IMG/VR virus record: IMGVR_UViG_3300034110_000714
Span: 1-21,853 of that record
Source of the DNA: a virus
DNA length: 21,853 nucleotides
Direction: 5' to 3' (one strand)
Below the pieces are notes generated by a model. It saw only the letters and a list, made by a program, of their open reading frames with translations, made no database searches and was not told the DNA's origin. Of this stretch, positions 5,085 through 7,630 are shown in pieces. The position numbers were made by a program, and so were the translations under genes. The number at the start of each line of letters is the position of its first letter. Within the stretch, counting starts at the first letter, position 1.

Positions 5085-5133
5085 ATTGTTTCTCTATCCA
5101 TTTACGTCGTGCTTCACAGCCTTGGCATGTCAT
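4969..5133 (-). CDS. Small CxxC protein (54 aa), start coupled to the NinB-like gene
   Basis: The frame starts at the ATG at 5133, which overlaps the stop of the NinB-like gene as ATGA, the usual coupling in this operon. The protein starts MTCQGCEARRKWIEKQYERS. It has one CxxC pair (C3/C6), a charged helix and a Pro/Asn/Gln-rich tail (TNKPSDPSHPDQQ). Similar short CxxC-helix proteins are common in phage nin-like regions. It shares 116 bases with the coiled-coil gene at 4884-5084 in a different frame. Confidence 0.5.
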   Translation of the reverse strand: MTCQGCEARRKWIEKQYERSKERMRLCIERLTSKATRTEQPTNKPSDPSHPDQQ

Positions 5134-5624
5134 TGCTTTATCTCCCAGGCATACATCAGATCATCAGGCGTATGCAGATAGCACCCATGTTTATTACAGA
5201 ATGCATGAATGTCATTCAGGTACTCAGTGAATTGATCCACCGTTGCATCTGTAGTGCTGATTAATTCATTCAATCCATCTGCCACAGCCTGATATTGCGG
5301 ATGCTTTTGTTCTTTTAATACTCTGACTGCTGCAAATGTCTGCTTGTACTGCCCAACCTCATCACGATCATAGATGCGTGATAAGAATTGCTTCTTGAAA
5401 AACAGATGCTCTGAATCTTTATCTGTGCCTTGGCGCTTAGACCATTGCGACATCCACATCCAATACAATCTATTCTGTGCAGTGGATCTATCATCTTGTT
5501 TTTGATCAATCACCACCCTTAACGGCTTACCCTCATTAATCGCTTGAGTGTAATTGGTGTGCATGTAGTTAATGGCTTTAGTGATGTCGGCATGACTCTG
5601 GATAGGAAACACGGCTTTTTGCAT
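5130..5624 (-). CDS. NinB/Orf-like recombination protein
   Basis: The 164-aa protein resembles lambda NinB (Orf), a recombination mediator that binds single-stranded DNA and SSB and can replace RecFOR for phage recombination. Shared by eye are a hydrophobic strand before a basic helix (PLRVVIDQKQDDRSTAQNRLYW, compare the SLDQNRKLW region of NinB). Then come Trp-rich helices (MWMSQWSKRQ) and a C-terminal FTEYLNDIHAFCNKHG segment like the terminal helices of that family. The start at 5624 is supported by AGGAG about ten bases upstream. The gene lies in a region of DNA-processing genes (Ref-like nuclease, RuvC-like resolvase), equivalent to the lambda nin region. The match is moderate; an unrelated phage protein with a similar layout is possible. 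Confidence 0.6.
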   Translation of the reverse strand: MQKAVFPIQSHADITKAINYMHTNYTQAINEGKPLRVVIDQKQDDRSTAQNRLYWMWMSQWSKRQGTDKDSEHLFFKKQFLSRIYDRDEVGQYKQTFAAVRVLKEQKHPQYQAVADGLNELISTTDATVDQFTEYLNDIHAFCNKHGCYLHTPDDLMYAWEIKQ

Positions 5625-5657: not shown

Positions 5658-5990
5658 TCAATTATTTAGCTTAGGCATAACACTGATATCTAAAGCAGCA
5701 CCACTGCCAACTATAACCAGCCAAGCCAATCGACCATGAGGTTTGATCTCTGGATCCTGCTGGTATATTCCCGTGCCAAACTCTTGGCCAGTTAGCAAAT
5801 TACAACGATCAGCTATTAACTCGATTAAATCTTCCGGCTCAATTGCCTGATCTGTCCAAGGTATGGCAACTAAATCAAAATCAAGATTCATGGTGCCGTG
5901 GACTGTTAGTGCATAGCCGTTATTTCTGGCAATGTCACATAGGCCGCAATACATTGATGCAAATACCGGTGAAAACGTAGCTTGCTTCAT
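5658..5990 (-). CDS. Nucleotidyltransferase-like small phage protein (110 aa)
   Basis: This is a compact phage protein that I recall as a recurrent unnamed family in proteobacterial prophages (VFASMYCGLCDIARNNGYAL, then DFDLVAIPWTD, KPHGRLAW, ALDISVMP). The arrangement G32-T33 and D37-F-D39-L, with a later hydrophobic-flanked D101 (AALDISV), resembles the metal-binding triad of minimal pol-beta-type nucleotidyltransferases. The G-T to D-x-D spacing is shorter than usual. The ATG at 5990 is preferred over TTG at 5993; it overlaps the upstream stop by one base (TGATG). Activity and substrate are unknown, and the NTase call is inference from motif spacing. Confidence 0.6.
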   Translation of the reverse strand: MKQATFSPVFASMYCGLCDIARNNGYALTVHGTMNLDFDLVAIPWTDQAIEPEDLIELIADRCNLLTGQEFGTGIYQQDPEIKPHGRLAWLVIVGSGAALDISVMPKLNN

Positions 5991-6265
5991 CAAAACACCT
6001 CTTTATCTTCCATCACCAACATCCGATTCACTCTCACCAGCCACTGATCAAACATGGTTTCACTCTCTGCCCGATTACCTAGCTGGAAAGTATCGAACTG
6101 AAAATGACAGGAATGGCATAGCGGAATAGTGAACTGATCTGAACTTTTGATCGATCTACCCTTACCGTGCTTCGCTGAATTTGAATGAGCAGCCTGACTA
6201 TTTGGATTGCCGCATCGGATGCATGGCAGCTTTCTGATTGCTTCGAGTCTTTTGGGGTTGCGCAT
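5990..6265 (-). CDS. Ref/HNH-like zinc nuclease (putative)
   Basis: The 91-aa protein carries the layout of small phage nucleases related to P1 Ref (RecA-dependent nuclease) and DUF968-type HNH enzymes. A zinc pair C15-x2-C18 (PCIRCG) is followed by A-A-H27 (the DH-like position of HNH), a basic segment KHGKGRSIKSSD (32-43) and TIPLC50-x2-C53-H54. A helical tail follows. Ref cuts DNA at RecA-made D-loops; the role here is probably DNA processing during phage recombination. The gene sits among NinB-like and RuvC-like genes. Its 5' 68 bases overlap the upstream gene in another frame. The nuclease class is fairly secure from the cysteine/histidine pattern, and the Ref assignment is less so. Confidence 0.68.
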   Translation of the reverse strand: MRNPKRLEAIRKLPCIRCGNPNSQAAHSNSAKHGKGRSIKSSDQFTIPLCHSCHFQFDTFQLGNRAESETMFDQWLVRVNRMLVMEDKEVF

Positions 6266-6528: not shown

Positions 6529-6642
6529 TTATTTAACTTCTTTCAAACAATCCCGACACACCTTGATTTCTTCATCATCAACCGTGTAATCGATCTCGGT
6601 CACACCATGAAGGCCGAATAAGCAAAGGAAAAATTGGAGCAT
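6529..6642 (-). CDS. Tiny CxxC phage protein (37 aa)
   Basis: The ATG at 6642 overlaps the upstream stop by one base (TGATG). The protein begins MLQFFLCLFGLHG, has an acidic middle (TVDDEEIK) and ends CRDCLKEVK, with C29/C32 forming one CxxC pair; C7 and H12 could complete a zinc site. Short proteins of this form (hydrophobic start, CxxC end) occur in many phages. The function is unknown. Confidence 0.55.
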   Translation of the reverse strand: MLQFFLCLFGLHGVTEIDYTVDDEEIKVCRDCLKEVK

Positions 6643-6962
6643 CACAGCACCTCGAATTGATCTCCCTCATACACAAACTGGAAGCCCATACAACGAGCAT
6701 CGTCAGTTAATGATGGGAACATTGGTGATCTTTCTTTTGAGCAGATAATGGCAATACATTCAGCCTTGCACTTATCTTCACGATCTACAGCCAAAATCAT
6801 TTCGTTATTATCTTCATCTGGTAGCGACTCAATAACACATGGAGCCAAATAACCAAACTCATCAGCAATACCCCAGGCGTAATCCCATGCTTTGTCACCA
6901 GTTTTGGCAATATGCACATCATTAAACTGGAATTCATTGTTTTGGTATTTGATTGTTTTCAT
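6642..6962 (-). CDS. Phage protein of unknown function (106 aa), first gene after the late leader
   Basis: The protein is acidic, with an N-terminal beta strand (TIKYQNNEFQFNDVHIA), an Asp/Glu-rich centre (ESLPDEDNNEMILAVDREDK) and four cysteines in the second half (about 42, 64, 68, 74 and 90 are candidates) without a clear metal motif. It is the first gene downstream of the structured leader and tR'-like terminator. It is therefore the first gene that depends on late antitermination, if that reading is right. The ribosome site before 6962 is weak. The family is unknown to me. Confidence 0.58.
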   Translation of the reverse strand: MKTIKYQNNEFQFNDVHIAKTGDKAWDYAWGIADEFGYLAPCVIESLPDEDNNEMILAVDREDKCKAECIAIICSKERSPMFPSLTDDARCMGFQFVYEGDQFEVL

Positions 6963-7077: not shown

Positions 7078-7105
7078 TTAAAAAAGCCCACCATTTGGCG
7101 AGCTT
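7078..7105 (-). terminator. tR'-like intrinsic terminator downstream of the late promoter
   Basis: On the minus strand AAGCTCGCC (7105-7097) pairs with GGTGGGCTT (7092-7084) in a nine-pair stem with two G-U pairs and the loop AAAT, followed by a run of T. It lies about 40-70 bases after the predicted start of the late transcript and before all packaging genes, like lambda tR'. It also ends transcripts that run on from the Q-like gene. Confidence 0.78.
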
Positions 7106-7141
7106 TTAAATCAATCTAGTGCCTTAACGTACACTTCGATC

Positions 7142-7181
7142 ACTATAACAGAAATATGCCATATCTTGTCCGGACAGTCAA
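7142..7181 (-). promoter_or_regulatory. Probable Q-dependent late promoter (pR'-like) with palindromes and a -10-like pause element
   Basis: The minus strand has TTGACT (7181-7176), a 17-base spacer and CATATT (7158-7153). The spacer contains the perfect palindrome TGTCCGGACA (7176-7167). ATATG-C-CATAT (7164-7154), a second dyad, covers the -10. TATAGT with an upstream TG (7147-7142) begins 11 bases after the -10 start, where lambdoid late promoters carry the second -10-like sequence that causes a sigma-dependent pause. The promoter sits directly after the Q-like gene and before the tR'-like terminator. Confidence 0.6.
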
Positions 7182-7189
7182 ATACTTAA

Positions 7190-7630
7190 TCAATCTAATT
7201 TCAAACGCTTATCGTGACCGGCTAAATAGAACTTTCCAGCGTACACCATGCCTTCTATTGAAGTTTTGCCCATGCCACGCTCATATGCCAACTGACGCAA
7301 AGACATTCCGCGCACACACTTGTCAATGAATATCTCAACCGCCACTTTCGCCGAAGCACAAACCGAACTCGACTTATTAAAATCAACAATCAACTTCCGC
7401 ACCTGCTCAGCTTCAAAATCACTAATCTGGCAAATGACCTGATCCTTACGTGGCGCCACCCCTTTGTTATTTTCAAGAATCAGCCAGTAGATCTGATTTA
7501 CCCCAAGTGAGTCCGGCTCATTACCCGACTTCATGCGTGAAATCTGGATGTATGCCCCATACTGCTTAAGCCAATCTTCAATACTAAAACGATCCCAGTT
7601 CATCACTTCCGCTTTAACCATCGCATTCAT
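7190..7630 (-). CDS. Q-like late-gene antiterminator
   Basis: The 146-aa protein matches the layout of phage antitermination Q proteins of the Phage_antitermQ type. An N-terminal W-x3-G-A segment (DWLKQYGAYIQISRMKSG, about 19-36) resembles the ERWGAWA start of that family. A central acidic helix follows (ISDFEAEQVRKLIVDF). A C-terminal sigma-4-like helix-turn-helix reads IDKCVRGMSLRQLAYERGMG, then KTSIEGMVYAGKFYLAG (about 102-138), compared with Y-x-GxSxRxIAxxLG in relatives. Such proteins bind at the late promoter, join RNA polymerase and make it ignore terminators. Position supports this: it is the last gene of the early operon, followed at once by a promoter and a terminator, then all packaging genes. 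GAGGGAATAGGG precedes the start. Confidence 0.72.
   Translation of the reverse strand: MNAMVKAEVMNWDRFSIEDWLKQYGAYIQISRMKSGNEPDSLGVNQIYWLILENNKGVAPRKDQVICQISDFEAEQVRKLIVDFNKSSSVCASAKVAVEIFIDKCVRGMSLRQLAYERGMGKTSIEGMVYAGKFYLAGHDKRLKLD

Follow-up and report, generated by a model that had tools for sequence, protein, structure and literature searches.

Is the short palindrome in the promoter behind this phage Q gene the site that Q reads, and how might it be read? Q-promoter recognition has been seen directly for few proteins, and their architectures differ: a direct repeat, a single site, a palindrome. The initial annotation of the window (the whole 21,853-nt stretch of viral DNA analysed here) had proposed a Q / pR' / tR' late switch with a -10-like pause element and a palindrome at the promoter. 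Sequence comparison supports this arrangement, with the palindrome as the Q site. The locus is very probably the late-gene switch of an Acinetobacter (pro)phage, in which Q would read the palindrome and override tR'.

The late-switch locus and its Q protein

All elements of the switch follow one another closely on the minus strand (Table 1). TTGACT begins 9 bases past the Q stop codon, close behind the gene as annotated, and a 17-bp spacer separates it from the -10. TATAGT begins at 7147, 11 bases after the start of CATATT; across 39 Q representatives, no other block of the promoter is as well conserved. The 10-bp palindrome is present, although it does not lie wholly inside the spacer as had been described: its first base is also the last base of the -35. 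The terminator lies at about +40 to +67, ahead of the packaging genes; the first ORF of the late operon starts at 6962, and the terminase and portal ORFs follow further on. The late operon downstream of pR' also carries a NinB/Orf recombination mediator and a DUF968-type HNH protein (5130-5624 and 5990-6265, minus strand). Upstream of the Q region, a 170-aa phage ORF (9046-9558, minus strand) contains a SutA RNAP-binding domain (PF20661, E 1.7e-8) and is a possible second RNA-polymerase-binding phage protein.

Table 1. Features of the predicted late switch in the window, in order of transcription.
Feature	Position	Strand	Basis or remark
Q-type antiterminator gene, 146 aa	7190..7630	-	PHROG 79 / QuuD class
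Predicted C-terminal helix-turn-helix of Q, residues 111-139	7214..7300	-	model helices 111-118, 122-139
Predicted specificity residues of the helix-turn-helix: R112, S124, E126, G127	within 7214..7300	-	
Q stop codon TGA	7192-7190	-	read from sequence
-35 TTGACT of late promoter pR'	7176..7181	-	sequence; TTGAC columns 79-92% conserved, 39 Q representatives
Candidate Q-binding element, palindrome TGTCC/GGACA (TGTCCGGACA)	7167..7176	-	-30 to -21; covariation, fixed position
Extended -10 TG ahead of CATATT	7161-7160	-	sequence
-10 CATATT	7153..7158	-	sequence; most A/T columns 85-97% conserved
-10-like (putative sigma-dependent pause) element TATAGT	7142..7147	-	-1 to +5; 90-100% conserved per column
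Predicted transcription start A	7146	-	from -35/-10 spacing
Leader hairpin, 5' end of late RNA	7117..7145	-	arms UAGUG 7145-7141 and CACUA 7121-7117; arm pairing score
Late-leader terminator tR'	7080..7107	-	11-bp stem 7107-7082, 4-nt loop, T tail ending about 7080
First ORF beyond tR', phrog_1453 (function unassigned)	6642..6962	-	late operon start

The window Q is not kin of lambda Q, to which the initial annotation had called it distantly similar. Profile searches placed it in phrog_79, 'anti-termination protein Q-like' (E 1.3e-19, residues 2-144), the profile that QuuD of the E. coli DLP12 prophage also matches (E 1e-52), whereas lambda Q and YdfT of Qin belong to another family, PF03589/phrog_127. 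The window Q gave no profile match to PF03589/phrog_127, and nothing in its sequence could be linked to lambda Q. The companion suggestion, a separate Q type with its own site, stood up: the protein belongs to phrog_79, and the site covaries with Q type in relatives. Against PF06530 (Phage_antitermQ; gathering cut-off 26 bits) the window Q had no match at E<=0.1; relatives that pass include P0003 (37 bits), L343 (35.1) and L339 (35). NCBIfam and Pfam searches with the window Q returned nothing informative, and a PDB profile search with 20 Qs as queries returned zero matches.

Structure prediction points weakly to phage 21 Q. An AlphaFold2 model of the window Q, built on 46 sequences (pLDDT 77, pTM 0.71), has six helices, with a low-confidence loop at residues 35-47 between H1 and H2. 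Comparison with Q folds, which the annotation had proposed as a check, gave phage 21 Q in its RNAP complex (6JNX_P) as the best full-length Foldseek match in the PDB by probability, a weak one (rank 2, probability 0.92, E 0.18, TM 0.43). The other matches were mostly sigma region 4 domains. The modelled fold agrees with the described 21Q fold, an agreement that is suggestive only and weak on its own.

Covariation, spacing and the leader RNA

The window alone could not distinguish promoter from chance. It contains 4 promoter-like sites against 4.5 expected, and simple arithmetic predicts about 21 perfect 10-bp palindromes in 21.9 kb; the exact palindrome TGTCCGGACA occurs once. Scanning GTDB genomes, IMG/VR, phage records and 176 Acinetobacter genomes yielded more than 300 related loci. 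Most carry the same promoter behind Q, usually no more than 20 bp away, and nearly all have a palindrome directly 3' of TTGAC whose sequence varies between types. These types include TGTCCGGACA, CGTGCGCACG, TGGCATGCCA, CGTTTAAACG, CATTTAAATG and CACTTAAGTG, as well as TGTCTAGACG, TGGTCGACCG, TGGTATACCG, CACGCGCGTG, TGTGTACACA and TGTGCGCACG, among others. A Gln-type clade has the odd-centred sites GTGC-A-GCAC and TGGC-A-GCCA. By the search pattern used, about 35-40 loci had no convincing promoter, including a Gln-like 'GVGKDTVRKE' clade.

The two halves of the palindrome covary far beyond chance. We located promoters without reference to the palindrome and reshuffled right halves among loci for 20,000 rounds, leaving out one representative (L136) whose automatic promoter call was false. 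Among 31 Q representatives sharing less than 85% identity, the paired half-site positions were complementary in 142 of 155 cases, against 76.8 +/- 6.3 after shuffling (0 of 20,000 rounds). Because shuffles ignore relatedness, we repeated the comparison on stricter sets: 18 distinct sites gave 80 of 90 complementary pairs (40.9 +/- 4.8 shuffled), and 9 Q representatives below 65% identity gave 41 of 45 (22.2 +/- 3.9). A scan blind to both Q and palindrome, using only the promoter core TATGGCATATTTCTGTTATAGTG across 2.9 million IMG/VR viral contigs, recovered 34 stretches with 15 distinct sites; at the shared centre, each of the 34 had no fewer than 4 of its 5 pairs complementary, for which the random expectation is 1.6% per stretch. 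On these comparisons, 142 of 155 pairs and 34 of 34 Q-blind promoters, we regard pR' and its palindrome as real. A second symmetry peak, at the extended -10 (ATATGGCATAT), reflected mainly conservation with far less covariation, and we set it aside.

Since the halves change together, both are probably read by one and the same protein. A single Q protomer might be enough, loading on the -25 to -21 half while the upstream half served otherwise, for example by letting a Q dimer damp pR' through covering its -35 end. AlpA of Pseudomonas aeruginosa loads in this way, as one molecule on its ABE at -25 to -20, GGGACG (PMC9371919), and the upstream half-site here overlaps the -35 hexamer by one base. 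However, both halves change together in nearly every type, and 21Q, whose site is a tandem direct repeat bound by two protomers, requires both subsites (PMC6606751). We consider loading by one protomer unlikely and favor a pair of Q protomers, one per half-site.

What the palindrome keeps constant is its distance to the pause element, not those to the promoter hexamers. Its centre lies 24.5 bp upstream of the -10-like element, and when all centres from 7 to 34.5 bp were scanned, the covariation excess peaked at 24.5 (z 10; next best 4). Some types depart from the usual layout, with 10 or 12 rather than 11 between the -10 and the pause element, or with a -35 spacing of 16. In these the palindrome stays 24.5 bp from the pause element (28 of 31 representatives, automatic centre call), whereas its distances to the -35 and -10 shift (22 of 31 modal). 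A fixed distance of this kind is what a protein meeting polymerase held at the pause would need. The downstream half-site, -25 to -21, coincides with the ABE of AlpA and with the subsite 1 region of 21Q, which has C:G at -21 (PMC6606751).

The leader RNA bears on where transcription begins. It folds at -22.2 kcal/mol (z -3.9), and its tR' stem varies among relatives. Its 5' end is predicted to form a hairpin whose first arm shares bases with the pause element, and the two arms covary: UAGUG/CACUA, CAGUG/CACUG, UAAGUG/CACUUG, UGGUG/CACCA and UAGUA/UACUA. A MAFFT alignment misplaced the 3' arm in several rows, so we compared the arms directly; own-arm stems scored 5.23 against 4.52 +/- 0.10 for shuffled partners (0 of 20,000). 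This covarying stem favors a start near 7146 over one downstream of TATAGT. TGTTATAGT could instead be the true extended -10, with no pause element and an incidental CATATT: TGnTATAGT agrees with the consensus for an extended -10, and no block is more conserved. But TATAGT stands 28 bp from the -35, compared with 17 bp for CATATT, and a covarying hairpin with one arm over TATAGT needs, as an RNA stem, a start upstream. That assignment is therefore quite improbable, and we retain CATATT as the -10 and TATAGT as the putative pause element.

The leader hairpin might make it harder for polymerase to backtrack to the pause, or it might shield the 5' end of the RNA. Rfam matches of the leader to amino-acid operon leaders were sub-threshold (E 0.14-0.72), and we attribute them to chance or to a generic hairpin-terminator shape.

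The recognition-helix code and exchange of helix with site

The identity of the half-site tracks the recognition helix of Q. The annotation had asked whether the palindrome and -10-like element are conserved in relatives, and with Q type: both are strongly conserved, and the half-site follows the recognition helix across relatives. Residues 119, 126 and 124 have among the highest mutual information with the half-site, and residues 126 and 124 together predict it with zero exceptions across 59 window-type Qs. At residue 126, E or D goes with TCC, K with TGC, N with TTT, A with TCT, and H with GTC or GTA. Proteins with R126 split by residue 124: V or C124 goes with GCA, Q124 with CGC, and S124 with CTT. 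One protein with a GCA half-site combines K126 with C124. Two clades that share about 40% identity both combine Asn126 with TTT/AAA, and near relatives of one of them have Ala126 and TGTCT/AGACG. Distances between helices account for distances between sites over and above what the remainder of the protein accounts for (partial Mantel r 0.35, 0 of 2,000 permutations). By this comparison, the half-sites fall into at least nine types that track the recognition helix of Q. That the palindrome is instead the operator of another regulator, a repressor or host factor, is hardly credible: short palindromes over a -35 are typical of operators, but exact TGTCCGGACA occurs only once in the window, its letters track the Q recognition helix without exception, and its fixed distance is to the pause element, not to the -35.

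Helix and site also appear to move together. We built a maximum-likelihood tree from Q residues 1-105, leaving out the helix-turn-helix, and site type required 18 changes on it where the minimum is 8. Well-supported branches force at least 3-4 changes each for TCC, GCA, TGC and TTT. Independent pairs on the tree agree in 3 of 3, 4 of 4, 4 of 4 and 2-3 of 3 cases with none opposed, so few that no type taken singly gives a significant sign test. Pairs that are 93-94% identical in the N-terminal part and 54-57% in the helix-turn-helix have different palindromes; two such loci share one genome (L055 and L077; 94% N-terminal, 57% helix-turn-helix) and have CGTGC and TGGCA sites. Downstream, identical 40-nt leaders occur behind two to four different palindromes. 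Because of these tree changes, N-terminally similar pairs with different sites and shared leaders, the DNA that runs from the codons of the helix-turn-helix to the end of the palindrome behaves, as judged from sequence, as one exchangeable cassette flanked by a conserved N-terminal domain and a conserved leader/tR'.

Particular loci illustrate the variety of these arrangements. Identical leader/terminator modules accompany different Q sites in L011/L026, L012/L027/L065, L014/L018/L024, L020/L032 and L021/L029, placing recombination joints at the -10/pause core. In L041, L042, L045 and L079, about 640 bp separate Q from pR', which still carries a CGTTTAAACG-type palindrome; within the intervening DNA are a small ORF, a long hairpin and a separate promoter with an extended -10. 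pR' cores at 7384-7406 of L402 and 266-288 of L407 (minus strand) have the new palindromes CCTGATCAAG and CTTGCGCAAG, respectively. No recognised phrog_79 Q was found near either core, and L407 has a 72-aa ORF just upstream instead.

Pseudomonadales phrog_79 loci outside Acinetobacter are mixed and too few to generalise. L343 has AGTTC/GAACC at the same centre, L339 has CGTG-TCC-CACG and L350 a longer palindrome. Downstream of the Q-like ORF of L346, the promoter spacer carries what looks like a direct repeat, TGTCCGGC-TGTCCGGC, a 21Q-like architecture inside the family.

A proposed switch among known antiterminators

The elements, their fixed geometry, the symmetric covariation, the recognition-helix code and the cassette exchange come from sequence comparison; binding of Q to the palindrome as two protomers, pausing and antitermination we infer. 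RNA polymerase would start constitutively at pR', near 7146, and sigma would hold it just after initiation, on the -10-like TATAGT that spans the earliest transcribed positions. Without Q, transcription would stop at tR' after about 65-70 nt. Q produced from the early operon would read the -30 to -21 palindrome through its C-terminal, sigma-region-4-like helix-turn-helix, most likely as two protomers, one per half-site of the inverted repeat. The protomer on -25 to -21 would hand its N-terminal part (H1, flexible loop and H2) to the RNA exit channel, and polymerase would become terminator-resistant, turning on the terminase-portal operon. We lean toward regarding Acinetobacter phrog_79 Qs as a separate antiterminator architecture, a symmetric pair on an inverted repeat, in which helix-turn-helix and palindrome form a mobile specificity cassette with a residue-to-base code and at least nine distinct pairs.

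The locus shares its general plan with the phage 21 and L systems and differs from them in the site. As in 21 and L, the candidate Q site lies between -35 and -10, a terminator and a putative -10-like pause element go with it, and the protein would read it through a sigma-region-4-like helix-turn-helix; the six helices of the model, less certain around H2, also resemble 21 Q. Unlike the direct repeats of 21 and L, with their 8-bp period, the site here is a contiguous 10-bp inverted repeat shifted upstream over the -35. gp23 of Salmonella phage L and 21 Q are themselves similar Qs with divergent helix-turn-helix regions and different sites (PMC8022706). AlpA likewise has a helix-turn-helix-read site in the spacer and a -10-like pause, and its K138, S139, T140 and H142 align by eye with K122, T123, S124 and E126 of the window Q; 21Q and AlpA contact DNA through the matching part of their recognition helices. 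AlpA differs in acting as a single molecule on a single non-palindromic site.

Other antiterminators are related by family or by layout. QuuD (PHROG 79, PF06530) belongs to the same family by the phrog_79 profile, the window Q falling below PF06530 detection. In coliphage QuuD-type loci (L368-L375, L366) a pR' beside Q was not recognisable by eye, and porin or lipocalin genes often lie downstream of Q. Lambda pR' has the same order of elements, with a Q of an unrelated family. By reading of J02459, its TTGAC is directly followed by TTATT-G-AATAA, an inverted repeat with an odd centre, and AACGA..UCGUU can pair across its pause element, comparable to the leader hairpin here.

Palindromic antiterminator sites have a precedent in the Caulobacter gene transfer agent: the antiterminator GafZ has a near-perfect palindrome between -35 and -10 and no longer binds once this is mutated (PMC11150451). 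GafZ differs in acting with GafY, IHF and NusAEG at a cellular GTA promoter, and it is a single example without a specificity series. In the papers covered by a search on palindromic Q sites and Acinetobacter phage sites, it was the only palindromic site found; an inverted QBE may have been described elsewhere, in the primary lambda, 82 and phi80 QBE papers. Within the literature searched, and as far as shown, the new features are a family-wide inverted repeat with fixed pause spacing, a residue-coded specificity series and the exchange of helix with site.

The phrog_79 family thus offers at least nine natural specificities, with matched changes in protein and DNA and sisters that are near-identical outside the reading helix. 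The recognition code, protomer number and site-to-pause spacing are testable by small swaps in a reporter, and if the proposal is true, the family would supply, ready for use, nine or more antiterminator/promoter pairs that are all distinct from one another. It presents a clear case in which a protein's DNA-reading end and its DNA target are inherited and exchanged as one piece. Swapping both together may prevent co-resident prophages from activating each other's late genes.
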